A DNA stretch of 64,000 bases from an uncultured Actinomycetes bacterium (GCA_903850565.1 CAINLV010000029.1:62001-126000); one strand, 5' to 3'. Numbered from the stretch's first letter, positions 9,595-36,852 are shown. Made by a program: numbers and translations. The notes: a model not told the origin generated them from the letters alone.

Positions 9595-10440
9595 ATGGTG
9601 CTACCTGCACTGGCAATTTATGCCTTCCTTTATTTATATCCCGCACTCTCCAATTTGGCCTACGCCTTGCAACGTTGGGATGGGGTAACCAAAGCTAAAT
9701 TTGTTGGGCTACACAACTTCGTTAACATGACCAATAACGACGATCTGCTCCACAAAGTAGTCGGTAACAGTTTTAAATTTACCTTCTTTGTAGTTATTTT
9801 TCAGACCGCCGCATCTTTATTCTTCGCTACCTTCTTAGTGAAGAACACCAAGACCAATATTGCGCTGCGAACCCTCTATTTCTTTCCCACGATTCTCTCC
9901 TCAGTCTCCGTGGGTTTAATTTGGACTTTTCTTTACGATCCAAACTTTGGTTTTGTTAATGCCATCTTTAAAAAGGTAGGTCTTAACTCCTTCGCGCTCA
10001 ATTGGCTAGGTAGCGAGAAGAGTTCGCTCTATGCCATTGCGTTCTCTCAAGTTTGGTTCCATACCGGCCAGATGATGGTTATCTATATCGCCGGGTTACA
10101 ACAAATTCCTGCCGAACTGTACGAAGCCGCTGAAGTAGACGGTGCCAGCAGATGGCAGCAATTTAAGAACGTTACTTGGCCCATGGCAATGCCCACAACG
10201 GCCGTTGTGGTTGCGTATACAACTATTCAGTCGTTCCGAGCTTTCGATCTCATATATTCCATGACACAAGGTGGCCCACAGAATTCTTCCAATATTCTGG
10301 TGACTTTGATTTACAACACCGCATTTTCCAGCTTCCGATTCGGCTATGCCTCTGCTGAATCCATTTTGCTAGTAGTGGTCGTTCTAGTCATCACTTGGCT
10401 TCAGCGACGAGTGCTGAGAATTAACACAGGTGAAAAATAA
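9595..10440 (+). CDS. ABC sugar transporter permease (MalF/UgpA type)
   Basis: An inner-membrane permease with about six helices. The EAA loop that docks to the ATPase reads EAAEVDGASRWQQFKNVTWP. The given start, ATG 9595, is the first standard start in frame, but it falls at the edge of the first helix and lacks a ribosome binding site. The frame stays open upstream to 9472, and its translation just before the ATG (KKAKPNGSRLVENRTLVL) looks like the usual basic N-terminus of such permeases. The true start is therefore probably upstream at a non-standard codon, or a base is wrong. It overlaps the next permease by one base (TAATG). No ATPase gene is present. Confidence 0.85.
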   Translation: MVLPALAIYAFLYLYPALSNLAYALQRWDGVTKAKFVGLHNFVNMTNNDDLLHKVVGNSFKFTFFVVIFQTAASLFFATFLVKNTKTNIALRTLYFFPTILSSVSVGLIWTFLYDPNFGFVNAIFKKVGLNSFALNWLGSEKSSLYAIAFSQVWFHTGQMMVIYIAGLQQIPAELYEAAEVDGASRWQQFKNVTWPMAMPTTAVVVAYTTIQSFRAFDLIYSMTQGGPQNSSNILVTLIYNTAFSSFRFGYASAESILLVVVVLVITWLQRRVLRINTGEK

Positions 10441-11255
10441 TGTTCTATAACTTTGCCCGACGCGTTGCACTTATCTCATTTGCACTTGCCATCATTGTCC
10501 CGACTTCTATCGTGGTCCTCGGTGCCTTCAAAAAAGATCTAGAGATTTATACCCAGCCTTTGGCCTGGCCAAAACACTGGAGTCTTTTCAACTTCTCCCG
10601 ATTAATTCATGAAGGCAATGTCTTTGTGCCATTTCGAAATAGTTTAATTGTCACTACCTGCTCGGTAGCAATTACCCTGACCTTGGCCAGCATGGCTGCC
10701 TACGGAATCTCCCGAATGATCAATGTGACTGGGAAAGTGCTCTTCCTTCTCTTCTCACTTGGTCTTGCAATTCCCGGACAGGTAAACATCATTCCGATTT
10801 ACATTCTCTTCACAAAACTGCACCTTACAAATTCCCTCATCGGTCTAATTATGGTGAATGTGGCTGTTACCTTGCCGATCTCGATTTTCATCCTCACCAC
10901 GTTTTTCCGAAATATCCAGAAGGAGATGTTCGAAGTTGCCGGCATCGATGGTGCAACAACTTGGCGGATTTACCGCTCAATTGCGCTACCGCTTTCCAGG
11001 CCAGCTATGGGTGCCACGGGGATCTTCTTGTTTGTGATCTGCTGGAATGATTTGCTCTATCCCTTGATGTTGATCACCCAGGCCGATAAAAAGACGCTAC
11101 CGCTGACGCTGATCGACTTCCGAGGCGAATATGCAACCAGCTTTAGCATGCTCTTCACCGCTATTTTGGTCGCTTCTATGCCATTGGTGATCATGTATGT
11201 CTTTATGCAGCGTTCATTTGTGGCAGGCCTGACCGCCGGAGCTGTGAAAGGCTGA
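10440..11255 (+). CDS. ABC sugar transporter permease (MalG type)
   Basis: A 271-residue permease pairing with the MalF-type protein just upstream. The EAA motif reads EVAGIDGATTWRIYRSIALP, and the C-terminus RSFVAGLTAGAVKG is the classic end of CUT1 MalG-type subunits. Its start overlaps the preceding stop codon, implying translational coupling. The expected third part, an MsmK/UgpC-type ATPase, is missing from the locus and from the window; in many actinobacteria one ATPase gene elsewhere serves several sugar transporters. Substrate is inferred from the neighbours as a sulfosugar. Confidence 0.88.
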   Translation: MFYNFARRVALISFALAIIVPTSIVVLGAFKKDLEIYTQPLAWPKHWSLFNFSRLIHEGNVFVPFRNSLIVTTCSVAITLTLASMAAYGISRMINVTGKVLFLLFSLGLAIPGQVNIIPIYILFTKLHLTNSLIGLIMVNVAVTLPISIFILTTFFRNIQKEMFEVAGIDGATTWRIYRSIALPLSRPAMGATGIFLFVICWNDLLYPLMLITQADKKTLPLTLIDFRGEYATSFSMLFTAILVASMPLVIMYVFMQRSFVAGLTAGAVKG

Positions 11256-11259
11256 CCCC

Positions 11260-11964
11260 GTGACTCTCATGATGCCGCAAGGAAGCCAGCGCGTGACCCG
11301 GATTGCCAATCAGTTACTGGAGATGATTGAAAATAGGGGTCTGGTGCCAGGCTCAGCTTTGCCCTCCGAACGAACTTTGGCTCAACAATTAGAAGTTAGC
11401 CGACCTAGTCTTCGCGAAGCGCTCCATATATTGCAGGCCCAAGGCATGGTCACCATCAAACATGGCCAAGGAACTTTTGTTGCTGAACCACTTTTAGCTC
11501 AGGAGTTGCGTTCAAAGATTATTTCTAAAACTACCGACCTCAATGAGCTCTTTGATGCCCGTGAAGTACTGGAAGTTCCAGCGTCGCGATGGGCCGCATC
11601 AAAGGCGACTAAAGAAGATATCCGCAATTTGCGAGTTACCTTAAATGAGATCGCAGCCATCACCGCAGTCTCCCCCGTTAACTATGACCAACTCCAAGTA
11701 TTGGATGCGAAATTCCATTTAACGATTGTCCAGATCGCAGGAAATAGATTTATTAACCAGACCTTAGGTGTTTTGCAAGATGTCATGCAAAAATCTATGC
11801 AGACGACACTGCGCCTTCCTGGCAGAAGCGAAATTTCGCGAATTCAACACGAAGCCATGTTGCAAGCAATTGCAGATGGCAATGGCGAACTTGCTTCGCA
11901 AATCACATTAGAACATATCACTGGGGCAAGATTGACCGCAGTTAAAGATGCCGAAAGCAAATAG
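11260..11964 (+). CDS. GntR-family regulator, FCD (FadR) subfamily; likely regulator of the sulfosugar locus
   Basis: A 234-residue transcription factor. Residues 10-75 form the winged helix (LEMIENRGLVPGSALPSERT, VSRPSLREALHIL, KHGQGTFV). Residues 95-225 are the all-helical FCD ligand domain, with DAREVLEVPASRWAA, DAKFHLTIVQIAGN and a late EH pair; Asp and His residues there usually hold a metal that contacts an organic-acid ligand. The start GTG 11260 is followed by ATG codons at 11269 and 11272, either of which could be used. It lies four bases after the permease and overlaps the kinase. Three AGGT-N3-ACCACT sites in the locus fit its subfamily. The inducer could be a sulfonated acid or sugar phosphate; this is inference. 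Confidence 0.88.
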   Translation: MTLMMPQGSQRVTRIANQLLEMIENRGLVPGSALPSERTLAQQLEVSRPSLREALHILQAQGMVTIKHGQGTFVAEPLLAQELRSKIISKTTDLNELFDAREVLEVPASRWAASKATKEDIRNLRVTLNEIAAITAVSPVNYDQLQVLDAKFHLTIVQIAGNRFINQTLGVLQDVMQKSMQTTLRLPGRSEISRIQHEAMLQAIADGNGELASQITLEHITGARLTAVKDAESK

Positions 11965-12847
11965 TCCCCAAGTCCTCTGCGTGGGAGTAATCACCATGGA
12001 CACGATTGCTCTGGTCGAACGCTATCCAGGTGCAGATGAACGAGTCCTCGCAAAAGAGATCGTTCGTGCAGGAGGTGGACCAGCAGCTGTCGCAGCCGTT
12101 GCACTTGCACGACTGGGAGTTTCCACGGCGATAGTAGGCACCATTGGCGACGACGAAGATGGCCACGAAGTTCTACGAATCTTTGAGCGAGAATCCATAG
12201 ATGCCCAAGGTATTTCCTTCGCTGGCGCACATACTGCTGGCAGCGTCATAGTTGCTGCACTAGAGGAAAGCACTCGTGCCATAAGCACTCGGCAACCGCT
12301 TCACCAAGCCCCAGTAAATGATTACGCCAAATCCTTAGTCCATAGCGTCGAGTGGGTTCATGCAGATCATGTTGGAATTCACCTCCTGGCAGAGCTGGGA
12401 GTTGCCAAGGGAAATGGCCCACAGATTTCCTTTGACGCTGGTTATGGTGTCGAAAACTTTGATCCTTCTATTGTGGATCTCTTTGTACCTACTGATCGGC
12501 AGATGAAATTGCGGTACCCGCAGTTGGAATTGGTCCAATCACTGCAGCAAGATTCAGAGGCCGGCGATTGCACCGTGGTGGCGACCTGTGGTGGCAAAGG
12601 CAGCGCCGGATTCTCTCGAACCGATGGTTATGTGCGGGCCGAAGGTTTTTCTGTTGATGTAGTTAGCACCTTGGGAGCCGGCGATGTTTTCCATGGCGCT
12701 TTGATTGCGCAATTAGTTCAAGGAAGAACTTTGGAAAGTTCATTAAGGCGGGCCAATGCCGTAGCGGCACTCTCCTGCCGAGCCATTGATGGGCAATCTG
12801 GCATACCAAATACTCGCGAACTCGAAGAATTCTTAGAGAGGCAATGA
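11948..12847 (+). CDS. PfkB-family kinase resembling 6-deoxy-6-sulfofructose kinase YihV
   Basis: A 299-residue ribokinase-fold sugar kinase expected to phosphorylate sulfofructose at C1 with ATP. The N-terminus VLCVGVITMDTIALVERYPG and RAGGGPAAVAAVALARLG match the PfkB substrate site. The C-terminal signature DVVSTLGAGDVFHGAL holds the catalytic Asp of GAGD, and QSGIPNTRELEEFL ends the protein. From memory, E. coli YihV has the corresponding GGGPAATAAVAAARLG, TTGAGDVFHGAL and GIP blocks, giving a closer match than to ribokinase or fructokinase. It overlaps the GntR gene by 17 bp and the aldolase by 4 bp, so kinase and aldolase are surely made together. Specificity needs alignment to confirm. 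Confidence 0.8.
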   Translation: MPKANSPQVLCVGVITMDTIALVERYPGADERVLAKEIVRAGGGPAAVAAVALARLGVSTAIVGTIGDDEDGHEVLRIFERESIDAQGISFAGAHTAGSVIVAALEESTRAISTRQPLHQAPVNDYAKSLVHSVEWVHADHVGIHLLAELGVAKGNGPQISFDAGYGVENFDPSIVDLFVPTDRQMKLRYPQLELVQSLQQDSEAGDCTVVATCGGKGSAGFSRTDGYVRAEGFSVDVVSTLGAGDVFHGALIAQLVQGRTLESSLRRANAVAALSCRAIDGQSGIPNTRELEEFLERQ

Positions 12848-13734
12848 TGAGAAGAGACCTAAGCCAAATTGCACGAAAGAGCGGCGCCCTTGCCATGGTC
12901 GCAGTCGATCAACGTGAAGCACTGCGAGGAATGTTGGCGCCACATCAGAGCGAACCAGTCACGGACAGCCAATTAACTCAATTTAAGGTTGATGTAGCCC
13001 GAGAACTTTCGCCATACGCTTCCGCACTTTTGGTGGATCAGGAATTTGGATTAGATGCAATCGTCGATCAAAAAGTCTTAGATCGAGGTTGTGGTTTGAT
13101 TGCCGCCGCAGATCTACTCCTTGGTCCGGCTGGTGGAGCTGCAACAGATACAGATATTGATCCCCTAGTTGACCCAATTCGAATGAAGAATATTGGTGCT
13201 GCCGGATTAAAGTTCTTGGTCTTGTGGCGAGCCGATGAAAGCGTAGAACAGCGAGCTCGATTGGTTGCCGGATTTAACCAACTCTGCGACGCTGCAGATC
13301 TTCCTTCGATTATTGAAATCATCGTCAAACCACCACTTGATTCCTCGGTTGCCTTCGATCGTGAAGAGCAGTTGATTACCGCAGCAAAAGAAGCGGCCTC
13401 ATGGAAGCCCGATCTCTATAAGGCAGAAGTACCTTTTCATGGTGAAGGGAGTTTGAGTCAGATCACCGCTCACGCGGAACGAATGAGTGAAGCGATTAAT
13501 GGTCCGTGGGTGGTTTTATCCAATGGGGTAAAGGCCGATAATTTTGCCAATGCAGTAACCGCATGTGCATTAGGAGGCGCTAGCGGATTCCTGGCCGGGC
13601 GAGCAGTGTGGGCCGATATCGTCGGATCTGCAGATACTCCTGGCGCACTTCGAGATGTCTCTATTCCACGGTTGCGAAACCTAAGTGAAATCGTAGATAA
13701 ATATGCCAAGCCATGGACAAGTTGGAATAACTAA
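12844..13734 (+). CDS. yihT: 6-deoxy-6-sulfofructose-1-phosphate aldolase, YihT-like
   Basis: A 296-residue class I aldolase expected to split sulfofructose-1-phosphate into DHAP and 3-sulfolactaldehyde. It follows E. coli YihT nearly block by block: AMVAVDQREALR, ELSPYASALLVDQEF, LKFLVLWRADESVEQR, DLYKAEVPFHGEG, PWVVLSNGV and GASGFLAGRAVWADIVG. Lys193 in LYKAEVP is the predicted Schiff-base lysine. The length equals YihT (about 292). Tagatose-bisphosphate aldolase LacD is the nearest alternative, but it is longer and lacks these precise blocks. The start ATG overlaps the kinase stop. The next gene, the Gfo/Idh protein, converges on it with a 3-bp gap. I rely on remembered YihT sequence, so an alignment would settle it. 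Confidence 0.85.
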   Translation: MMRRDLSQIARKSGALAMVAVDQREALRGMLAPHQSEPVTDSQLTQFKVDVARELSPYASALLVDQEFGLDAIVDQKVLDRGCGLIAAADLLLGPAGGAATDTDIDPLVDPIRMKNIGAAGLKFLVLWRADESVEQRARLVAGFNQLCDAADLPSIIEIIVKPPLDSSVAFDREEQLITAAKEAASWKPDLYKAEVPFHGEGSLSQITAHAERMSEAINGPWVVLSNGVKADNFANAVTACALGGASGFLAGRAVWADIVGSADTPGALRDVSIPRLRNLSEIVDKYAKPWTSWNN

Positions 13735-13737
13735 TAT

Positions 13738-14841
13738 TTATCCCAGTATTTCCTTAAGCGCGACCAGTCGATTTTCTTTAATACTTAAGTGTGCCGCTAA
13801 TCCAGTTGCCACTGATGTAATACCATCTTCTAAAGTGACTTCTGCTGGCGTTGAATTAAGCAAGGCATCTCTAAACTTCAAATGCTCAATGTATGAAGCA
13901 CCGTAATGATGGCCGTAGTACTTAATGCTTAGATCAATGACCTGCTTAATCTCACTGCCCCGTCCAGTTCCAGCTTTGGCATCCCAACCGGTTTTTCTTC
14001 CCCAGTCAGCACGACGGCTATAACGAACTGTTTGCGACGGCAAGAATGATTCCAATTTTCCTTGGTCACCAACGATGGTCACAATCTCTTTGTCGAAGGA
14101 ACCTTCACCAAACATGCACAGATCCAACATGGCACGCGCACCACTGGCGTAGTCAACTATGACAAATGCGCTATCCAACATGTCCGCTTGTCGCCCATCG
14201 TAAATCTCATCTTTATGATTTACATTCTGACCGCCGGAAGCAAATACTTGAGTTGGTCTTTCCCCCATTATTAGATCCATTAAATTGAAGTAGTGACAAC
14301 ATTTTTCAACTAAAGTTCCGCCAGTTCTTTCGGAGAAGCGATTCCAGTTGCCTACCTTTGGATAGAAAGGTTCGCGGTGTTCGCGGATTGATACTTGCTG
14401 CACCTTCCCAACTTCGCCGGCGTGAGCACGCGCAATTACTTCGGCTACAGGTGGCATAAAGCGATACTCCAGGCCCATCCAGGTCAGAGCAGTTCTTGCC
14501 CTATTCCATTCCAAGATTTGCTTGCAATCTTCGATGGTTGTGGCCAGGGGTTTCTCCACGAAAACTGCGATATTGGTGACGAGCGCATCTTTAAGGACTG
14601 CGGCATGTGTGTCGTTGGGTGAAGCGATCACTACGGCATCCACTAACCCAGATTCCAAAAGCTCTAAATGGTTGGAAAAGGTCTTAGCGCCAGGCACCAT
14701 AGCAAGCGCGGCGCTACGGGATTCTTCCCATGGGTCGCTGATCGCGGTGATGGTGGCCCCGCCCATAATTTTGATATTTTCGATGTGCTCTCGGCCCATG
14801 CTGCCGGCGCCGATAATCCCGTATCTCAACTCTGATGCCAT
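13738..14841 (-). CDS. Gfo/Idh/MocA-family protein; candidate NAD-dependent sulfoquinovosidase (GH188-like)
   Basis: A 367-residue NAD-binding protein. Residues 6-40 form the Rossmann start (YGIIGAGSMGREHIENI), VEKPLATTIEDC is the family's EKP block, and GGTLVEKCCHYFNLMDLI contains the His that usually sits at the sugar-binding site. Ordinary members oxidise sugars or inositol. A branch of this superfamily, GH188, uses NAD as a cofactor in a redox mechanism to release SQ from its glycosides and lives in SQ gene clusters that lack a GH31 sulfoquinovosidase. That fits this locus, which has no GH31 gene. Fold is certain; the glycosidase assignment is inference, a plain dehydrogenase being the alternative. 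An operator copy lies 7 bp upstream of its start. Confidence 0.75.
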   Translation of the reverse strand: MASELRYGIIGAGSMGREHIENIKIMGGATITAISDPWEESRSAALAMVPGAKTFSNHLELLESGLVDAVVIASPNDTHAAVLKDALVTNIAVFVEKPLATTIEDCKQILEWNRARTALTWMGLEYRFMPPVAEVIARAHAGEVGKVQQVSIREHREPFYPKVGNWNRFSERTGGTLVEKCCHYFNLMDLIMGERPTQVFASGGQNVNHKDEIYDGRQADMLDSAFVIVDYASGARAMLDLCMFGEGSFDKEIVTIVGDQGKLESFLPSQTVRYSRRADWGRKTGWDAKAGTGRGSEIKQVIDLSIKYYGHHYGASYIEHLKFRDALLNSTPAEVTLEDGITSVATGLAAHLSIKENRLVALKEILG

Positions 14842-27505: not shown

Positions 27506-29869
27506 GTGACCGTGCCCAAGTCTTGGACAGATGACGCTCCCGAACCTATGGCTCTGCAAGAACACGCTCACCTGCGCGATCCGCTCTCTTATAAAATCAA
27601 AAAAGCGCTCCTGGGTGACCCGCTAAACCGCCATTCACTCTCCCACCAGCGCCTGAGCAAGCGCTTCGCCTTGGGAATCCTTTCCTCGGATTGCATCTCC
27701 TCTTCGGCCTACGGCAGCGAGCAAATCCTGCTCGCCTTACTTCCAGCCTTCGGTTTGGCCGCCTTTAATATTTTGATGCCAATGACCCTGGTGGTCTTAT
27801 TCGTTCTGGTGATCATTTCATTCTCATATCGCGAAGTCGTTCAGATCTACACCAAGTCCGGTGGTGCGTACGTGGTCTCGCGCGACAACTTGGGTCAGGT
27901 CGTTGCCCAAATTGCTGCAGTCGCACTCATGTTGGATTACATAGTTACCGTTGCTATTCAATCCTCGGCAGGTATCGATGCTGTGCTTTCAACTTTTGCA
28001 AATTTACATCCATACAAATTGCAAATGACAGTCGCGGTCATTTTGTTGCTTACCTACGGAAACCTGCGCGGAGTGAAGGAAGCAGGCGCGGCCTTTGCAT
28101 TACCTACTTATCTTTTCGTGGGTGCGCTTGCGGTTGTCTTCGGAATGGGTATCTATAGAACTATTAATGGCACACTTCCAAAATACGATCCTCATGTTGC
28201 TGGTGCCGTTCCAGTGGGTCATTCACAAGGATTGCTGACCTTCGCTGCAATCTTTATTTTGCTGCGTGCGTTTGCTAACGGCGGTTCATCGCTCACCGGT
28301 CTTGAAGCGATTTCTGATGGCGTTTCTCTCTTTAAAGTTCCCGAAGGTGTCAATGCCCGAAAGACCTTGATGATCATGAGTGGAATTTTGGGAACCATGG
28401 TTTTTGGTGTCTCTTGGTTTGCACATTCAACTTGGGCGACTCCTTACATGAAAGGTTCGCCGACTGTTATTTCACAGATTGCTAAGGCCGCACTTGGCCA
28501 AGGCGGATTTGGTTCGGTCTTCTTCTATGTGGTTCAGGCAGCTACAACTTTGATTCTGATTACCGGAGCAAATACTGCATATAGCGGTTTCCCTTATCTT
28601 GTGAATTTTGTGGCCAACGATGGATATCTGCCGCGTCAACTCACCAAGCGTGGTCACCGATTAGCTTTTTCTAATGGAATTATTTTACTTGCCAGCAGTG
28701 CAACCGTCTTGGTTATCGCAACAAAAGCTTCCGTAGATCATCTTGTGGCCTTTTATGCACTTGGTGTTTTTACTGGTTTTGCTTTGGTCGGTTTTGGTAT
28801 GGCCAAACGAGCCAAGAGCAATAAGGAGGCTGGCTGGCGCTGGAAATTCGGCATCAACATCGTCTCCGGAGTGGTTTCGTTCACGATCATTATTATTTTC
28901 GCGGTAGTGAAATTCACCGAAGGTGCTTGGGTAATTATCGTTATCACGCCAATTCTGGTTGTTGCCTTACTTCGACTAAATCGCCAATACCGCCAGGAAC
29001 AAACGGCTCTGAAAGTTACTCAGGTTCAATCACGAGCGACCTCCATTACTCGGCATAATGTTTCGGTCTTGGTTGATAGCGTGGATATTGCCACGGTTGG
29101 TGCGGTTCGATACGCACGCAGTTTGAGCCCAAGAAACTTGTCCGCTGTTCACTTTGTTATTGATGACCGAAGATCAGAAATGATCAAAGAAGAATGGGCA
29201 TCTAATAAGGCACTAGCCGACGTTCCTTTGGAATTAATCGATTGTCCAGACCGAAGAATTCCTAATGCTGCGCTGGATTATGCCATCCGGGCTACGGCAT
29301 CCCAGGATGTAGAACTCACCTTGTTGTTGCCACGTCGTTCATATTCCTTCTTCTTGGGACGGCTGTTACACGATCAGACAGCTGAAGAAATTGCCCGTCC
29401 AATCTCCCAGTTGCCCAGAGTTGTTGCAACAATTATTCCTTTCGATGTCGAAAAAATTATTTCTGGTGAAAAGGTCGATGTCCACGCAGAACACGATATG
29501 GCTCAATCTTTGCAACCCATGACAGTGCCGGCACATCGCGATCCAATCGATGATGATTCACCGATTTTGTCCGCAACTGGCGAGGTAAGCCACTATGCGG
29601 AAAATATCTATCCGATCGGAAAGGCGACTTGGCGTAAACGTGCTCATATTCGCGGTCGCGTCTCTTCTATCCGTACCGCCCCTTCTGGTGGTGCACCACG
29701 TGTTGAAGTAGAAGTGTGGGACACAACCGGCGGCATTACCTTGCAATTTCTAGGCCGGCGTGAAATTGCCGGACTTGAAGTTGGTTCGACAATCTGCGCC
29801 GAAGGTATGGTTGGCGAGCAAGATGGTGCGCTCACGATCTTGAATCCTTCTTACGAAATCGTTATCTAA
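27506..29869 (+). CDS. APC-family permease with cytoplasmic domain and C-terminal OB-fold
   Basis: A 787-residue fusion. Residues 60-470 form a 12-helix APC-type cation or amino-acid permease (AYGSEQILLALLPAFGLAAF, YTKSGGAYVVSRDNLGQVVA, GLTGLEAISDGV-like SLTGLEAISDGVSLFKVPEG), resembling the KimA-like group of actinobacteria. About 500-650 is a soluble USP-like domain (NVSVLVDSVDIATVGAVRYA). The last 90 residues (RKRAHIRGRVSSIRTAPSGG, VEVWDTTGGITLQFLGR) are a complete OB-fold resembling nucleic-acid-binding domains that are normally a separate small gene near this permease. The start is GTG 27506. Substrate is unproven; potassium or amino acids are the likely classes. Confidence 0.85.
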   Translation: MTVPKSWTDDAPEPMALQEHAHLRDPLSYKIKKALLGDPLNRHSLSHQRLSKRFALGILSSDCISSSAYGSEQILLALLPAFGLAAFNILMPMTLVVLFVLVIISFSYREVVQIYTKSGGAYVVSRDNLGQVVAQIAAVALMLDYIVTVAIQSSAGIDAVLSTFANLHPYKLQMTVAVILLLTYGNLRGVKEAGAAFALPTYLFVGALAVVFGMGIYRTINGTLPKYDPHVAGAVPVGHSQGLLTFAAIFILLRAFANGGSSLTGLEAISDGVSLFKVPEGVNARKTLMIMSGILGTMVFGVSWFAHSTWATPYMKGSPTVISQIAKAALGQGGFGSVFFYVVQAATTLILITGANTAYSGFPYLVNFVANDGYLPRQLTKRGHRLAFSNGIILLASSATVLVIATKASVDHLVAFYALGVFTGFALVGFGMAKRAKSNKEAGWRWKFGINIVSGVVSFTIIIIFAVVKFTEGAWVIIVITPILVVALLRLNRQYRQEQTALKVTQVQSRATSITRHNVSVLVDSVDIATVGAVRYARSLSPRNLSAVHFVIDDRRSEMIKEEWASNKALADVPLELIDCPDRRIPNAALDYAIRATASQDVELTLLLPRRSYSFFLGRLLHDQTAEEIARPISQLPRVVATIIPFDVEKIISGEKVDVHAEHDMAQSLQPMTVPAHRDPIDDDSPILSATGEVSHYAENIYPIGKATWRKRAHIRGRVSSIRTAPSGGAPRVEVEVWDTTGGITLQFLGRREIAGLEVGSTICAEGMVGEQDGALTILNPSYEIVI

Positions 29870-30693
29870 AGTTTCTGCGAAGGAATCAATAGCTCAATCG
29901 TTGGGATAAGTGAGAGTATCTCTTGATCGGAAAGCCCCTCGAAGAGTTTTGGACCCATTTGAGACTTGTGGCATCGCAATGCCGCGACTTTTTCGGAAAT
30001 GAATTCGGCAACCGGAACGGCCACAGTCTGTTCCATAACTTCTAAAGCCGATTCCAATGCGCCATCTAGAAGTTCCTTCACTGAAGTTAAATTCGCAGTT
30101 AAGTTCAAGCTTTCCAGCGCTTGGGAATCGGGAATCATGCACCACATAAGTATTGGGGCTTGGTCCCCACTTTTACCGAGCTGAGTTGATTCGGCAACAA
30201 TCGCTAGGGCTTTAGTCGTTATCAGGTTGGTCTGAATGTGGTCCGGGTGGCCGTATCCACCGCTGGGGTCATAAGTAATAACGATTTGGGGGTCAAAGTC
30301 CAAGATCACTTGTGCCAACAGGTTTGCTCGTTCCATCACATCTGCCTTTATGAAGGCGTGTGGGTGCTGGTTTGAGATTCGCCCGGTCATGCCACTATCT
30401 CGGAATTTTCGCGTCGGTGCTCCTAAAAATAAGTGGCGCCTAACGCCAAGAACCTGAAGTGCGGCCGCTAATTCCTCACTTCGGTATTGTCCTAAATTGT
30501 CGTTCTTCGCTGACGCCGACTGGCTCAGAGATGGATCCAATATGTCGCCCTCTTCGCCTCTGGTGCAAGTCACGACCATAACCTGGAAGCCATCAGCGAT
30601 GCATTGCGCGATCGATGCGCCGGTATAAAGCGCCTCGTCATCAGGATGGGCGTGAACAAAGAGAACACGACGAGATTGCGCGGATACGGGCAC
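29866..30693 (-). CDS. mshB: PIG-L deacetylase, probable mycothiol biosynthesis MshB
   Basis: A 275-residue zinc-dependent N-acetylglucosaminyl-inositol deacetylase. VLFVHAHPDDEALYTGASIA carries the H-P-D-D zinc site; TCTRGEEGD, RSEELAAALQVLGV, FLGAPTRKFRDSGMTG and ITYDPSGGYGHPDHIQTN (second zinc His) follow MshB block by block. MshB removes acetyl from GlcNAc-Ins during synthesis of mycothiol, the actinobacterial thiol. It overlaps the end of the APC permease by 4 bp on the opposite strand. Other PIG-L members are possible, but RDSGMxG and GGYGHPDH favour MshB. Confidence 0.85.
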   Translation of the reverse strand: MPVSAQSRRVLFVHAHPDDEALYTGASIAQCIADGFQVMVVTCTRGEEGDILDPSLSQSASAKNDNLGQYRSEELAAALQVLGVRRHLFLGAPTRKFRDSGMTGRISNQHPHAFIKADVMERANLLAQVILDFDPQIVITYDPSGGYGHPDHIQTNLITTKALAIVAESTQLGKSGDQAPILMWCMIPDSQALESLNLTANLTSVKELLDGALESALEVMEQTVAVPVAEFISEKVAALRCHKSQMGPKLFEGLSDQEILSLIPTIELLIPSQKL

Positions 30694-30765
30694 GAACTAA
30701 GGTTAGCGCTCGACGTGTGCGAAATTCTAAGAGTTAGACTTATGGAAATTGTCAGGAGCTCAAAA

Positions 30766-31542
30766 ATGAAGCATCACGTAGCGATCGCTCTATGGGACAG
30801 CTCTCTTCTGACCGCTTCGCAAACCATCGATGCCCTCGCCACTTCTGGGATAGACGTAATCACGATAAATTCCAGTTTAAAGAGGGCGATTGGAACGGAT
30901 ATCTCTTCCCCAAACATATTTATCGAACAAGTAAAGAAGGCAGTCCGGTCCTGTCCTGAAGGCGACTACTTTTTTACTTATATTTCCGGTGATGTGAGCT
31001 CTTCGAATTGGGGTTCATATATTCAGCGATTAACTCAAGTCATAACTGCGCTTGACCCTTTTGTTTACGCCCCTTATTTAACCTCGGAAGGATACCCTCG
31101 AGAGTTCGTCCACTTAACCGCAGATTTAGAGAGCGCGGATTTGGATATCGCTTGCATGACCGATGGGCTCGTTTTTTCACTACATCCGACGATTGTGCAA
31201 GAGTTGAAGAACTTCTTTGCATATCTAGATGCGCAAAACGCACGGTTTACAGTTGGATGGGGATTGGATTGGATCTGGTGCTTATTGGCGATTCATCATC
31301 AGAAGTACATTATTCGAGACGTGGCAATGCCACTTTTACACCCATCTGGCACCTCTTATGACAAATCGCAGGCGAAAGAAGAATTTCATCAGGTAATCAA
31401 TTTCTTTTTGGATTACCGCCATCAATTAGATGGAAGTGACACTCAATTTCGAAAATATATTTATATGATCAATGAAAGGTTTAAGAACAACCCCAAATTC
31501 TTGCAAGCGAATGCATTCTTCCCAAAGGTAGGGTCAATTTGA
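30766..31542 (+). CDS. Unrecognised protein, possibly glycosyltransferase-like
   Basis: A 258-residue soluble protein, first gene of a six-gene overlapping cassette. It begins MKHHVAIALWDSSLLTASQT, looks like an alpha/beta nucleotide-binding start, and has YFFTYISGDVSSSNW and DIACMTDGLVFSLHP, then FTVGWGLDWIWCLLAIHHQK, a layout reminiscent of sugar-nucleotide transferases where a D-x-x or D-W motif binds the donor. AGGAG stands eight bases before ATG 30766; an in-frame ATG at 30742 is the alternative. Its stop overlaps the TTG start of the GT4 gene. I cannot name the family with confidence. Confidence 0.6.
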   Translation: MKHHVAIALWDSSLLTASQTIDALATSGIDVITINSSLKRAIGTDISSPNIFIEQVKKAVRSCPEGDYFFTYISGDVSSSNWGSYIQRLTQVITALDPFVYAPYLTSEGYPREFVHLTADLESADLDIACMTDGLVFSLHPTIVQELKNFFAYLDAQNARFTVGWGLDWIWCLLAIHHQKYIIRDVAMPLLHPSGTSYDKSQAKEEFHQVINFFLDYRHQLDGSDTQFRKYIYMINERFKNNPKFLQANAFFPKVGSI

Positions 31543-32678
31543 AGATTCTCCATGTTGCCCCAAACGCCTACCCATTTACCGGTGGGATAGAAGTCTTACT
31601 CCGTAATTTGGCGTTGTATGAAAAGAATTTGGGCATAAACGAATTACTGATCGCCTTTCCTGATCGCTCCCACATTTTCGACTCACAATTCAGCATTGAT
31701 GGCACCAGAGTCATTCCTATGAAAGTCTTGATGCAAAAACCCACCAATCCACTCCTTCCCAAGCCGGTCTACAAACCTTCGGAAATTGTGGAGATATTCT
31801 CACTTTATCGAAATCTTTTGCTCACCGAAAAGCCAGATGTCATTCACCTTCATGACTACAGCGAGGCCTCCTTGCCAGTTATATCCGTGGCACGAAGCCT
31901 TGGGATTCCATTAATTCAACATCTGCACATCATGATTACCTCTGCATTTCCAGATGACCTCATAAATAACTTCAAGAACCTGACCAACTTCATTGCCGTT
32001 TCGCAAGCAGCTAAGGATGCGTTAGATCGCGCGATTGGAAAGGAAAGTAATGCGATTGTCGTTCCAAATGGAATTCCTGAAGTTTCCGAAGAAACGCTAA
32101 ATCTTTCAAAAGATCACACCAATATCATTTTGTGCGTTGGTCGATGTGTGCCCTCCAAAGGGTTCAATAGGGCATTTAATATTCTGGAAGGTCTTTTGAA
32201 ATCCGGGATCGATTGTCGCCTGGAATTCATTGGAGCCGGGCCCACCCTGTCGCATTTGAAAGTTGAAACAACAGCACGGAGCCTTGATTCGCGAGTCTCC
32301 TTCTACGGATTACTAGATCGAGACGTTGTTCTGCAAAAGATCAGAACCGCTACCGTTTTACTGGTTCCTTCCGAATCGGAAGAAGGGTTTGGCCTAGTAG
32401 TAGCCGAAGCTGGCGCCTGTAAGACTCCTGTAGTTGCCACAAAGATTGGTGGGCTAGTAGAAACTGTTGAAGATGGAGTCAACGGCTACTCACGTGAACT
32501 CAATGACGAACCAGGTTTAATTGAAGCGGTTGCGAAAATCATCACAAATCCGAAATTGGCAGAGGAGTTGGGTGAAGCCGGATATTTACGTTTCCAACGT
32601 ATGTATGGCATAAAGGAATTCGCTGCGAAAGTTGATAGCCTCTACCAACTCGCATTATTGAAAGGGACAATTTGGTGA
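31539..32678 (+). CDS. GT4-family glycosyltransferase
   Basis: A 379-residue GT-B glycosyltransferase. The acceptor half begins LHVAPNAYPFTGGIEVLLRN; the donor half has ILCVGRCVPSKGFNRAFNIL and the catalytic E-x7-E region VPSESEEGFGLVVAEAGACK followed by PVVATKIGGLVETVEDGVNG, the nucleotide-sugar site. Length is typical. It starts with TTG inside the stop of the previous gene (TTGA overlap) and its own stop overlaps the PqqD-like gene. Role is probably in a cell-surface or secreted glycan. Confidence 0.9.
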   Translation: MKILHVAPNAYPFTGGIEVLLRNLALYEKNLGINELLIAFPDRSHIFDSQFSIDGTRVIPMKVLMQKPTNPLLPKPVYKPSEIVEIFSLYRNLLLTEKPDVIHLHDYSEASLPVISVARSLGIPLIQHLHIMITSAFPDDLINNFKNLTNFIAVSQAAKDALDRAIGKESNAIVVPNGIPEVSEETLNLSKDHTNIILCVGRCVPSKGFNRAFNILEGLLKSGIDCRLEFIGAGPTLSHLKVETTARSLDSRVSFYGLLDRDVVLQKIRTATVLLVPSESEEGFGLVVAEAGACKTPVVATKIGGLVETVEDGVNGYSRELNDEPGLIEAVAKIITNPKLAEELGEAGYLRFQRMYGIKEFAAKVDSLYQLALLKGTIW

Positions 32679-33118
32679 CTACTACTCCTATTGCTTATGA
32701 AATTTGTGCCGGAGAACTAGAGTGGGAGCGACTCAACGGAGAAGTAATCGTCATTTCATTTAAGTCCGGAAAATATTTTAGTCTCAGTGGTGCTGCAGCC
32801 GATCTATGGAGTTTGATCGTTGAAATTGTTCCCATCTCTGATTGGCATCAAGTGTTGGCTCAGGAATGGTCAGGCATTGAAATAGATCAAAAGGAAATTG
32901 ATTCCTTTATTTCGCAATGTTTAGCGGAGGGTTTAATAAGATCAGTAGAAGCAACAAATACTAAATCGGGTCCAATTCAACTGCTGAAAGATTTTGATCG
33001 AAAGGTCTTTGCCGTTTCGCTAATGACCTTCGGAAACCTTCAGGATTTAATTATGGTTGACCCCGTACACGATGCCTCGTTGATAAATTGGCCGCTTCCA
33101 ACCGATGCCTCAATCTAG
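32675..33118 (+). CDS. PqqD-like protein
   Basis: A 147-residue protein. Residues 12-95 match the PqqD/RRE-like winged-helix fold: WERLNGEVIVISFKSGKYFS, LSGAAADLWSLI and a C-terminal helix pair. PqqD domains bind leader peptides for RiPP-modifying enzymes, but similar proteins also occur with HPr-kinase-like genes in glycan loci. The C-terminal tail is unusual: FGNLQDLIMVDPVHDASLIN, then WPLP, resembling a conserved D-L-Q-D-L-x-x-x-D-P-x-H-x motif of this subgroup. I take GTG 32675 (GTGA overlap with the GT4 stop); TTG 32672 is one codon upstream. It overlaps the kinase gene by 14 bp. Confidence 0.75.
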   Translation: MTTTPIAYEICAGELEWERLNGEVIVISFKSGKYFSLSGAAADLWSLIVEIVPISDWHQVLAQEWSGIEIDQKEIDSFISQCLAEGLIRSVEATNTKSGPIQLLKDFDRKVFAVSLMTFGNLQDLIMVDPVHDASLINWPLPTDASI

Positions 33119-34103
33119 TATTTCTGATTTTTGCCAGGCATTCCTGGCTCAGGCAATTCATTCCACAACAAAGACCCCGATTGTATTTCATTCTCGCTTA
33201 GGCGTAAGAAGTGTTGCGTTGATCTCTCAACCCAATTTGCCAGGCATAGAACTCATTAATTCAGCACTTCTGCCTTCAACAGATATCCCAACAGAACATA
33301 TCTATTTATGGAGTAGCGAATCCGTGACTTCGCTTGAGGAAATTCCTGGATATCACTCAATTCAGCGCCTGCACCCCAGTGAATCTGAATTCGAAGATTT
33401 TCGGGTCGCGTGTGATCCTTCTGGGTTATTTATCTATGTATTTAATACAAGCACCAGAGAAGGTGCTGTTTGGTTAAGTCCACTATTGCGAAGTCAACCT
33501 GAGCCGTTGATTACTCCTTTTCGTGCGCTGCTCTCCTGGATTATTCAGGCCGATCACGGGCAGATTCTTCATGGAGCTGCCTTCGACTTTCAAGGTTTCG
33601 GGGTGCTTCTTTCTGGCCCATCTGGAAGCGGTAAATCAGTGATAACGCACCGAGCGTTAGCCGCCGGTTCACCCATTTTGGCAGATGATGCAATCTTGCT
33701 CATTGGTGGCACTGCCTACCCCATCTACACCAAAATGAAATTGAAAGAGGAACTGCCTGCAGAATTGCATCAATATCTGAACGCAACGCCAGAAATTGTC
33801 GGGAGTAAATCAACACTCAACCTTTCGGCACTCGGCTCACGATTTTTACCGAAAATGTCCGCGGATTACTTACTCTTTCCTTCCGTGACACAAGTTTCGC
33901 TCTTGACCAAGTTGGCCACCATGATCGCGATCAAAAAGATCCTCATAGACAGTTCCTCGGAAACTTTAGGGTCTGGGGCTGGAACGCTGAGGTCGCTCAT
34001 GTCTACTCTTTCCAAGAGCCAATGCTACGAATGGCAATTGGTTTCCGATGTGGAAGAAAACTGGACTCAACTCCTGACGATTTTTCCCCAAGGTGAAGAA
34101 TGA
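33105..34103 (+). CDS. HPr-kinase-like protein
   Basis: A 332-residue protein whose C-terminal half resembles the HprK/P-loop kinase domain: HGAAFDFQGFGVLLSGPSG continues into SGSGKS (Walker A, about residues 169-176), and GSPILADDAILLI supplies the Asp pair seen in HPr kinase. The N-terminal half (1-150) is a beta-rich domain without a match I can name. HPr itself is not encoded nearby, so the substrate is not HPr in any obvious way; HprK-like kinases in lasso-peptide and glycan clusters phosphorylate other targets. Tight overlap with the PqqD-like gene suggests the two work as a pair. Confidence 0.75.
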   Translation: MPQSSISDFCQAFLAQAIHSTTKTPIVFHSRLGVRSVALISQPNLPGIELINSALLPSTDIPTEHIYLWSSESVTSLEEIPGYHSIQRLHPSESEFEDFRVACDPSGLFIYVFNTSTREGAVWLSPLLRSQPEPLITPFRALLSWIIQADHGQILHGAAFDFQGFGVLLSGPSGSGKSVITHRALAAGSPILADDAILLIGGTAYPIYTKMKLKEELPAELHQYLNATPEIVGSKSTLNLSALGSRFLPKMSADYLLFPSVTQVSLLTKLATMIAIKKILIDSSSETLGSGAGTLRSLMSTLSKSQCYEWQLVSDVEENWTQLLTIFPQGEE

Positions 34104-34777
34104 TGGAAAATTATTCTGCAATTCTTCCGGTTCATAATGGTGCCAACTACATTTCCCAAGCCTTGGAATCTATCCTGGAACAGAGTTTTTTACCTGCGGA
34201 AATCATTTTGGTAGATGACCATAGTGAGGATGCAACCATCGCAATAGCAAGATCTGTATTCCCGGAGATTCGCATCTTGCACACATCCACTAGGGGTCAG
34301 TCTGCGGGATTAAATGTAGGAGTAGCGGCCGCCACATCGGAGTTCGTCGCATTCTTAGATCATGACGATATGTGGGACAAAGAGAAATCGAAATTGCAAT
34401 ATGAAATATTAAAGAGCAATCCCGACTATTCAGCGATTTACTCGCAAGTTGTGAATTTTACCGGGGATTCCAACGTTGCCGAGCAGAGAATAAATATGGG
34501 AAGTGCCAGAGTTCTTGCGGCGGCGTTCTTTCGAAAATCCTTTTTTAATGAAGTAGGAATCTTTGATGAATCACTTACTCATCACGCCATAGTTGATTGG
34601 TGGCTCAGAAGTGAGCGGGCTGGCATGAAAGTTCTGGAGGATAATCACATCGCTCTTTATCGCCGCATCCATGAGAGCAACTCTGGAGTCGTTCACAAGG
34701 ACGCTGCGCGTTCGGCCTTATTTAGCATTCTGAGAAATGAAATCCATCGTGATCCAACGGGTGACACCAATGGATGA
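34100..34777 (+). CDS. GT2-family glycosyltransferase
   Basis: A 225-residue GT-A glycosyltransferase: YSAILPVHNGANYISQALES, IILVDDHSEDATIAIA and VAFLDHDDMWDKEKSK, where the last holds the DxD-type metal site in the variant DHDD. The catalytic base region is near HHAIVDWWLRSERAG. It lacks membrane helices. ATG 34100 overlaps the previous stop (ATGA) and its own end overlaps the next gene by 8 bp. It likely adds one sugar to the product of this cassette. Confidence 0.88.
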   Translation: MMENYSAILPVHNGANYISQALESILEQSFLPAEIILVDDHSEDATIAIARSVFPEIRILHTSTRGQSAGLNVGVAAATSEFVAFLDHDDMWDKEKSKLQYEILKSNPDYSAIYSQVVNFTGDSNVAEQRINMGSARVLAAAFFRKSFFNEVGIFDESLTHHAIVDWWLRSERAGMKVLEDNHIALYRRIHESNSGVVHKDAARSALFSILRNEIHRDPTGDTNG

Positions 34778-36227
34778 GAGGGAGAATCAACTAATAATTG
34801 CTGCGCTCGGAAAGCCGGAATTGGCACTCATCGCATGGAATCAATGGCGATCAGGTTTCCAAGATTACAAAGATGCCCCCCACGTCCTCTCTTGGGCCGC
34901 CGGATACATTTACAAAAACCTCTCCCAAGCCGGAATTGAAGAGAATTACCTCCGCGGTATTTATCGTCACAATTGGTTAGCCAACAATTTTCGATTTCAA
35001 CAGACCCAGGAAATTCTGAGAGAAATTACCGATCGCTTCAAGATCGCCCCGTTGAAGAGCTTTGGAATATCCGTTAGAGATTATTCCCTTGGACTTCGGC
35101 CCGTCGGTGACTTTGATTTCTATGTAGAAAGCAAGGATCTTCCAGGTGTCGTGGAAATCCTTAATTCACACGGATACCAAGCCCAATTAGATGTAAGTCA
35201 TGATGAATTTTTCGACAAGTTGGTAGGCCTGCGCGGTTCATGGAATTTCATGAACCAAGATCAGTCGGACCTAGATCTTCACTGGCGGATCTTCGACCAT
35301 CTGGATTTAAATCAGAATCAGGAAATAGTTGATAAATACTCCACCCTGGTTTCTAGCCCGAATTTTGGCCAATACCGAGAGTTGATCGCCGAGGTTACAA
35401 CGGTCCAAATTGCCTGCCATCATTTTATCGATGGCGGTCCGTTGTACAGCGGAATCTTTGATTTCCATATGTTGTATACCAAATCTGATCCGGTTGTAAT
35501 CTTCGAAATCGCTAAATTGGTCGGAGCTATAAATCTGGTTCAGGAATTACTCAAAAGTATCGATCACGCCCTTGGCTCAGATCTATCCTCAGTGTGGAAT
35601 GAGATGATGGCTAAGTTCTCGGAGGTTTCTTCGCATGTTGGCGGGAGAGCGCACACGATCATGCCAATTCAAGATCGATTCATAGAACACAAAGCCATTA
35701 GGTATCGAGCCATTTACAAACTTTGGCTCTTCTTGGGGCTGAACCCCGCTCATGAAAGATTTCTTTTGAAGTTTTTGCGTAGTTTCTCTAACCCAAATTC
35801 GTACCTTGCCATTGAATCGAATGACATTTTTTCTAATGAAAATGCCACCATGGGTTTGGGTTGGCATCATAAATACCCAGGACAATATTTCCGCTGGGCC
35901 AGGAATGTCGAGAGCCGTTGGATTGCACGTCTTGAGAAGGAAAGCAGATATTCGATTCGAGTAGTTTTAGATGAATTCTTCTGGGCCTGGAAAAAGGATT
36001 TTCAACTCAATCTCTACTGTGCTGGGTACTTTGTGGGAACCGTAAACCATTCCTTCTATTCATTTGAATTTGAATTACCAAGTCACCTAAATGGACTGGT
36101 TGAATTTAGTTTGCGTTCAGAAAAAATCCCGCCGCCAGAACAACTTTCCATTCATTACAACTGGTATCGCCTAACCGCGCCAGTTACGTCCATCTCCATA
36201 ACGCAAGGAGATAAGTTAGTTCAATGA
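34770..36227 (+). CDS. Nucleotidyltransferase-fold protein (NTP_transf_5 type)
   Basis: A 485-residue protein of the uncharacterised nucleotidyltransferase group often coded beside PqqD and HprK-like genes. The diagnostic part is PLKSFGISVRDYSLG, RPVGDFDFYVESKDL (the G-S/D-x-D metal motif as GDFDFYV) and QSDLDLHWRIFDH. The C-terminal 130 residues (from FRWARNVESRWIARLEKESR) form an extra beta-rich domain. I chose ATG 34770 because it overlaps the GT2 stop region; an earlier ATG at 34737 would lie inside that gene. Substrate unknown; transfer of a nucleotide or a phosphoryl group to a glycan or protein is possible. Confidence 0.78.
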   Translation: MDERENQLIIAALGKPELALIAWNQWRSGFQDYKDAPHVLSWAAGYIYKNLSQAGIEENYLRGIYRHNWLANNFRFQQTQEILREITDRFKIAPLKSFGISVRDYSLGLRPVGDFDFYVESKDLPGVVEILNSHGYQAQLDVSHDEFFDKLVGLRGSWNFMNQDQSDLDLHWRIFDHLDLNQNQEIVDKYSTLVSSPNFGQYRELIAEVTTVQIACHHFIDGGPLYSGIFDFHMLYTKSDPVVIFEIAKLVGAINLVQELLKSIDHALGSDLSSVWNEMMAKFSEVSSHVGGRAHTIMPIQDRFIEHKAIRYRAIYKLWLFLGLNPAHERFLLKFLRSFSNPNSYLAIESNDIFSNENATMGLGWHHKYPGQYFRWARNVESRWIARLEKESRYSIRVVLDEFFWAWKKDFQLNLYCAGYFVGTVNHSFYSFEFELPSHLNGLVEFSLRSEKIPPPEQLSIHYNWYRLTAPVTSISITQGDKLVQ

Positions 36228-36240
36228 GATTGGAGTCATC

Positions 36241-36735
36241 ATGCAAAATCCACTAGTTCAAAGATCTTTCAAACACATGGCCTGGGCAAACGGGCGAATG
36301 TTAGAAATCCTGAGCCATCTTCCCGATGAAGCGATTAACTTTTCGGCCCGGAATCCAGATTGGACCGTGGGGAAAATTGCTCATCACATCATCACTGCTG
36401 AAGGAAGATTGATTTCCCGCGTTAAGAATCAATCGCCACCGGAAGAATTTCCAGCTCCGGCAACGGCGAATGGTATTCAGGGTTTGATTTCTACCTGTAA
36501 GGAACGCGATGCTCAACTCTTGGAATTAGTAAATTTTCCGGATGAAGGTCATAAATTTCTCCGTTACGGAGTCGAGGTTGAATTCTTAACTTCCACAATA
36601 TTGGTCCAAGCCGTGCACCACGCATCCGAGCACAGAGCCCAGATTGCCGACATCTTGGCCGCCAACCAAATGGATGTCCTCAATTTAGATGAAATTGATT
36701 TGTGGTCATTTGAGATGTGGGAACGAACTCAATAG
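36241..36735 (+). CDS. DinB-family protein
   Basis: A 164-residue four-helix-bundle protein of the DinB/YfiT superfamily: the first helix FKHMAWANGRMLEILSHLPD, then WTVGKIAHHIITAEGRLISR, and the last metal His in VQAVHHASEHRAQIADILAA. The three His expected for the metal site (HH, and H-x-x-x-H) are present. Family members act as thiol S-transferases, including mycothiol-dependent ones in actinobacteria, which agrees with mshB nearby. GGAG six bases before ATG 36241 is the ribosome site. Specific reaction unknown. Confidence 0.85.
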   Translation: MQNPLVQRSFKHMAWANGRMLEILSHLPDEAINFSARNPDWTVGKIAHHIITAEGRLISRVKNQSPPEEFPAPATANGIQGLISTCKERDAQLLELVNFPDEGHKFLRYGVEVEFLTSTILVQAVHHASEHRAQIADILAANQMDVLNLDEIDLWSFEMWERTQ

Positions 36736-36762
36736 ATACGTTCTCTCAGTCATTGGAAGAAC

Positions 36763-36852
36763 TGGCGGTGGCGGTGGGATTTGAACCCACGGTGGAATTT
36801 CTTCCACACACGCTTTCGAGGCGTGCTCCTTAGGCCGCTCGGACACGCCACC
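36763..36852 (-). tRNA. tRNA-Ser (CGA)
   Basis: On the reverse strand the acceptor GGTGGCG pairs with CGCCACC, discriminator G, and CCA is encoded (36765-36763). The anticodon arm is CACGC-CTCGAAA-GCGTG with anticodon CGA, the long variable arm is TGTGGAAGAAATTCCACC (class II), and the T arm is GTGGG-TTCAAAT-CCCAC. It reads UCG. Confidence 0.95.

Follow-up and report, generated by a model that had tools for sequence, protein, structure and literature searches.

Linear polyphosphorylated peptides (LPPs), described in May 2026 from the lpp cluster of Paenibacillus alginolyticus, have been reported as restricted to Bacillota (PMC13381572), as have the paeninodins. The leaders of LPPs and lasso peptides share the motif [Y/W]xxPx[L/V/I/F/A], bound in the groove of the RiPP recognition element (RRE; RiPP, ribosomally synthesised and post-translationally modified peptide), LppK phosphorylates LppA, and LppN was inactive in a heterologous host, possibly because a partner not encoded in the core cluster was missing (PMC13381572). 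In the case of pseudomycoidin, an HprK-like kinase and then a nucleotidyltransferase act, leaving a phosphate on a Ser followed by one or two hexoses (PMC8498205). The window analysed here is a stretch of 64,000 nucleotides from an uncultured Actinomycetes bacterium (GCA_903850565.1 CAINLV010000029.1:62001-126000), in which a cassette of overlapping genes encodes a PqqD-like protein with an RRE domain, an HprK-like kinase, an NTP_transf_5 nucleotidyltransferase and glycosyltransferases (GTs). The original prediction held that the set had no precursor peptide. We found a precursor-like tail fused to the C-terminus of the PqqD-like protein; the set is therefore still RiPP-like in appearance. Our preferred, still tentative reading is that the cassette serves to modify a peptide in the manner of a RiPP system, with a logic like that of LPPs, and that the C-terminal tail of the RRE protein would be the precursor.

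A conserved tail on the PqqD-like protein

32672/32675 to 33118, plus strand: PqqD-like protein, lasso-type RRE domain (residues ~21-92) and C-terminal tail (PF05402, NF033536)
33008 to 33115, plus strand: precursor-like tail, residues 113-148, FAVSLMTFGNLQDLIMVDPVHDASLINWPLPTDASI (alignment with 16 other tails)
33059 to 33073, plus strand: DPVHD, tail residues 130-134, nearly invariant (all 17 tails have the D, P and H)

The PqqD-like protein scored 25.9 bits against PF05402 (cut-off 23.4) and 28.5 bits against NF033536, and its RRE family profile matches the solved leader-binding lasso RREs TbiB1 and TfuB1 (PDB). Tailed PqqDs were gathered by Actinomycetota profile searches, a class search with the NTP_transf_5 protein and a genome-contig scan with the PqqD pair, which yielded four loci; a separate genome-contig scan with the HprK query had no match. 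Altogether, 17 tailed PqqDs were found in 15 genomes or records, from Actinomycetota, one cyanobacterial plasmid and one alphaproteobacterium. Their tails follow the consensus D[LM]xDLLxxDP[IV]H[DE]...GWP; every one of the 17 has the Asp, Pro and His of DP[IV]H, a count that is partly conditioned since the same motif served to anchor the tails. In an 11-sequence alignment, mean column entropy was 1.23 bits in the tail, 1.97 in the RRE domain and 2.41 in the linker. Hence, no part of the protein is better conserved than the tail, the RRE domain included. The cyanobacterial case, on a plasmid of Crinalium epipsammum PCC 9333, has genes for PqqD, NTP_transf_5, HPr kinase, FkbM and GT2 proteins in succession, and its PqqD aligns with that of the window over most of the length, including the C-terminal end (FTDMEDLLLLDPIHEVDVEAGWP aligned with FGNLQDLIMVDPVHDASLINWP).

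The tailed PqqDs are a discrete family and not the end of a continuum, because in the class-level profile search none of them scored below 94 bits, whereas the best of the other matches reached 64. A degenerate DNA pattern of the tail matched 5 of 396 Actinomycetota genomes, each time in a tailed PqqD (reversed control, 0), and the pattern found no stand-alone tail peptide in these genomes. A tblastn search of plasmids with the tail alone returned only the record of the query itself. Two matches of the pattern in viral contigs lay outside any PqqD frame and were judged to be chance. The tailed proteins also cluster on a tree restricted to the RRE domain, built from few columns and with weak forks. 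It requires 2 changes of the tail label, compared with a mean of 15.6 after shuffling, which is compatible with a single origin; the tail may thus have arisen once. Two of the tailed PqqD open reading frames (ORFs) have long N-terminal extensions (L085 9163-10476 and L144 8956-10011; 437 and 351 aa), reflecting either the start codon or a fusion, and the extension in L085 had no Pfam match.

Most tails share a leader-like motif and its register with LPP precursors

In 11 of the 17 tails, the motif [WFY]xxPx[LIVM] precedes the DPIH Asp by exactly 18 residues; outside the tail, it occurs 3 times in 1202 residues of these proteins. The spacing equals that between Tyr-16 and Ser3 in the LPP consensus YxxPxVLxHQxIxFETxxS. 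Because of this shared spacing, the tail Asp lies on the register of the Ser phosphorylated by LppK, and the aligned position is Asp in every tail (17/17).

Among the untailed comparators, L054 and L052 have short separate YxxP peptides beside PqqD (L054: MKVEIYEKPVIVRHESIREITLVS...), whereas the same scan, of low sensitivity, gave no such peptide for the first 11 tailed loci. In L054, from the metagenome-assembled genome LQ108M_Bin_12, two tandem precursor-like peptides at 9620-9742 and 9739-9870 (YEKPVIVRHESIREITLVS and YETPEIIRHDNLREITLVS) resemble the LPP leader consensus. They are followed at 9968-13974 by genes for PqqD, HprK, a B2-type transglutaminase-like protein (PF13471), NTP_transf_5 and an ATP-binding cassette (ABC) ATPase, with no cyclase seen nearby. 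L054 would thus be an LPP-like locus, with B2 as its likely peptidase.

Gene content and recurrence of the cassette

30766 to 31542, plus strand: protein without family name, possibly glycosyltransferase-like (ORF)
31539 to 32678, plus strand: GT4-family glycosyltransferase (PF00534 108 bits, PF13439 56 bits)
33105 to 34103, plus strand: HprK-like P-loop kinase (Walker A and acidic pair; weak structure match)
34100 to 34777, plus strand: GT2-family glycosyltransferase (PF00535 96 bits)
34737 to 36227, plus strand: NTP_transf_5 nucleotidyltransferase with ~130 additional C-terminal residues (PF14907)

With the PqqD gene, these form a run of six overlapping plus-strand genes (30766-36227). The overlaps were noted correctly in the original prediction; the single unit it saw belongs to a longer insert (~29869-36757) that sister genomes lack. 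The kinase scored 27.9 bits against Hpr_kinase_C, under the cut-off of 33.3, and a sequence comparison with solved structures gave no plausible relatives other than the HPr kinases 1jb1, 2qmh and 1ko7, which matched weakly. Aligned relatives keep its Walker A motif, GPSGSGKS at residues 171-178, and its acidic pair, DD at 194-195, the second Asp included; one lasso-type comparator has DE there. The NTP_transf_5 protein (PF14907, 58.9 bits; cut-off 31.2) retains the catalytic-type DFD (residues 125-127) and LDLH. Its extra C-terminal region, which has no Pfam name and is common to the homologues of G581, G675 and G654, is possibly a glycan-related beta domain. The product of 30766-31542 had no match in Pfam or NCBIfam, and its gene was not seen in other cassette loci. 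No lasso cyclase or protease is encoded among the insert genes, and a family search of the whole host genome (~95% complete) found no lasso B2 protein (PF13471).

Within 7 kb of the tailed PqqDs, HprK was present in 17/17 cases, NTP_transf_5 in 16/17, lasso B2 in 0/17 and an Asn-synthase-like gene in 1/17; since the profile seeds came partly from the same loci, these counts show linkage and not independent discovery. The sole Asn-synthase-like gene belongs to a separate lasso-type cluster next door (G188). Among untailed PqqD comparators, 8 of 15 have B2. As had been anticipated, glycosyltransferases lie near nearly all of the 17 tailed PqqDs, and the combination of PqqD, HprK and NTP_transf_5 with GTs and without lasso cyclase or B2 is a real, recurring one: the same reduced content is found in unrelated phyla and does not break up in relatives. 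Variable extra genes at these loci encode FkbM, Stf0 sulfotransferase, an APH/RIO-like protein, a predicted Wzm-like permease and a WecG-type enzyme.

Two genomes have two tailed cassettes each, on different contigs (G099, L043 and L143; G188, L045 and L046). In L046 (5889-17624), the tailed cassette adjoins a lasso-type set composed of an Asn-synthase-like gene, an untailed PqqD, HprK, NTP_transf_5 and an ABC exporter, a pairing that resembles the side-by-side LPP and lasso clusters of Bacillota.

Comparison with described systems

LPP clusters are the closest described relatives. Both they and the cassette combine a discrete lasso-type RRE with an HprK-like kinase and a nucleoside triphosphate (NTP) transferase and have no macrolactam cyclase, and both have a GT-rich neighbourhood and a patchy horizontal distribution. 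The combination is therefore not undescribed, as had been suggested, since the Bacillota LPP clusters already pair RRE, HprK and NTP transferase without cyclase in GT-rich loci (PMC13381572). LPPs have features of their own, namely a separate precursor, an SpI-like leader peptidase, an MsbA-like exporter, the phosphorylated Ser3 and their occurrence in Bacillota, whereas the cassette is distinguished by the precursor-like tail on the RRE, the invariant Asp at the Ser3 register and its presence in other phyla. In the window, the discrete lasso-type RRE is present, the HprK-like kinase and NTP transferase stand in one unit and there is neither cyclase nor B2. No SpI-like leader peptidase was found in genes 30766-36735 by Pfam and NCBIfam (the remaining genome was not searched), no ABC exporter lies within 7 kb of the PqqD gene, and no separate precursor with YxxPxVLxHQxIxFETxxS was seen, the genes overlapping and the gaps having no small ORF with a leader motif. 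Because leader peptidase, exporter and separate precursor are missing there, we do not class the cassette as an LPP cluster, though from its genes it would be LPP-like in its working. The gene combination is already known from LPPs; the fused tail in place of a separate precursor appears to be new. We found no description of such a tail, or of an RRE bearing its own precursor-like peptide, in the open-access literature.

The phosphoglycosylated lasso peptides paeninodin and pseudomycoidin also join RRE, HprK and nucleotidyltransferase; unlike them, the cassette has no cyclase, B2 protease, separate precursor or conserved C-terminal Ser. A lasso peptide cluster was ruled out, as the Asn-synthase-like cyclase and B2 protease are absent. 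The HPr-rel-A system (TIGR04352/TIGR04353) likewise combines a PqqD-like protein with an HprK-related kinase. It was ruled out because the window HprK scored 19.5 (cut-off 200) and the window PqqD did not match TIGR04353, a model of 74 positions with no tail. The SynChlorMet cassette resembles ours in its PqqD-like and HprK-like pair (ScmC/ScmD) and was also ruled out (ScmC 14.1, cut-off 125; the insert lacks a radical SAM gene).

Proposed mechanism and alternative explanations

By analogy with pseudomycoidin and LppK/LppA, we propose the tail as a built-in precursor. The leader-like half of the tail would sit in the groove of its own or a neighbour's RRE domain, and the DPIHD...GWP end would thereby be offered to the HprK-like kinase. 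The NTP_transf_5 protein and the GT2 and GT4 enzymes would then add sugars, giving a phosphoglycosylated, protein-bound peptide. Binding of the tail in cis, its role as the substrate and the order of the steps are what we infer here. A further proposal, which we regard as rather doubtful, is a RiPP class with RRE, leader and near-invariant core in one polypeptide, in which the recognition protein would be the carrier of a phosphoglycan and the core would be conserved, as in a cofactor or carrier, rather than variable as in an antibiotic.

Several observations weigh against the tail as precursor. In the window, the tail has lost the aromatic residue and the Pro of the RRE-binding motif and retains the hydrophobic position alone. 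No Ser or Thr is conserved, and 5 of the 17 tails have none from the DPIH motif onward; LPP-style phosphorylation of a core Ser is therefore not general, and the acceptor may be an Asp or a His, or may lie outside the tail. The cassette encodes no leader peptidase or exporter. In a few NTP_transf_5 members, the active-site acids are degenerate (NFH in Crinalium, L050 6367-7431; DTH in G350), so some of these proteins may not be catalytic nucleotidyltransferases. The predicted structure of the PqqD protein was unusable (pLDDT, predicted local distance difference test, 39), as was that of the NTP_transf_5 protein (pLDDT 37). Finally, a docking motif would be expected to show conservation this high no less than a core would.

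That the tail serves for docking, the true substrate being a glycan, is nearly as likely, and itself on the unlikely side. Here the tail would be leader-derived and unmodified and would recruit or gate the kinase, the NTP transferase or the GTs, which would act on a surface glycan or lipid-linked sugar. Such a scaffold would suit a near-invariant tail, unlike the variable LPP cores, with no conserved acceptor Ser or Thr, and neighbours that include FkbM, Stf0 sulfotransferase, a predicted Wzm-like permease and a WecG-type GT. However, peptides are the targets of RRE, HprK and NTP_transf_5 in the characterised cases that we compared, and the leader-like motif keeps its register in 11 of 17 tails. 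The same precedent bears on the original prediction, a glycan biosynthesis set controlled by the kinase and nucleotidyltransferase, which we now consider very improbable: it fits the GT-rich context, but neither a regulator nor an HPr target was seen in the insert, and relatives of HprK and NTP_transf_5 modify peptides.

That the tail is autoinhibitory or a placeholder, displaced by a true precursor encoded elsewhere in the genome, seems improbable. RRE domains normally work in trans, those of LPPs and lasso peptides binding separate leaders, and the genome is incomplete. Yet the intergenic gaps of the first 11 tailed loci had no small ORF with a leader motif in a filtered scan (of low sensitivity, as it also missed the precursors of several lasso-type loci), and the tail pattern was never a stand-alone peptide in the 396 genomes. 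Slightly less probable again than a controlled glycan set is a relic: a former lasso or LPP cluster, non-functional here after the loss of its cyclase, protease and transporter. The lost WxxP motif of the window tail, the absence of the protease in family members and the weak HprK score would agree with decay; against it, all frames are open, the catalytic motifs of the kinase and NTP_transf_5 protein are intact, the tail is conserved and unrelated phyla share the same reduced gene set.

RREs normally capture a separate precursor, and the usual search rule of a small precursor gene near the RRE would fail for a widespread family bearing the leader-like peptide on the RRE itself, which would thus escape RiPP mining. 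If the tail is indeed the precursor, the phosphate and hexose peptide chemistry of LPPs and paeninodins would extend to other phyla without a cyclase, and the cassette would provide a simple test system of one protein, one kinase, one NTP transferase and one or two glycosyltransferases.

A probably horizontally acquired insert at a tRNA gene

29869 to 36757: insert, most likely of horizontal origin, bounded by an APC-type transporter gene on the left and by tRNA-Ser(CGA), at its 3' end, on the right (sister-genome alignment, GC content)
36763 to 36852, minus strand: tRNA-Ser(CGA), 3' end at the insertion site (ARAGORN and junction alignment)
29866 to 30693, minus strand: PIG-L/LmbE-like deacetylase, left end of the insert (ORF; identity from sequence reading)
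36241 to 36735, plus strand: DinB-superfamily protein, right end of the insert (PF05163 33.3 bits)

The site is empty in two genomes of the same genus (G001 and G002), in which the transporter is directly followed by tRNA-Ser and tadA. Their alignment to the window runs to 29868, at the end of the transporter gene, and restarts where tRNA-Ser(CGA) has its 3' end (36758/36763); tadA also lies directly 3' of the transporter in G005, G006 and G008. The insert, ~6.9 kb in a small-genome actinobacterium, has a GC content of 0.453 compared with 0.472-0.495 in host windows of 6.9 kb, and 0.42-0.46 in the cassette genes proper. No HprK relative was found among the 36 genus and family members searched, and no tailed PqqD among the family members included in the class-level profile search. 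Empty sister sites, low GC and the lack of these relatives together point to recent horizontal transfer as the most likely origin of the cassette. No integrase was observed.

Inside the insert, the cassette is flanked by the PIG-L/LmbE-like deacetylase gene and the DinB-superfamily gene, both of which are probably accessory to it. The former differs from the remainder of the insert in its GC content (0.505), and the latter has a homologue at another place in the relative G016.

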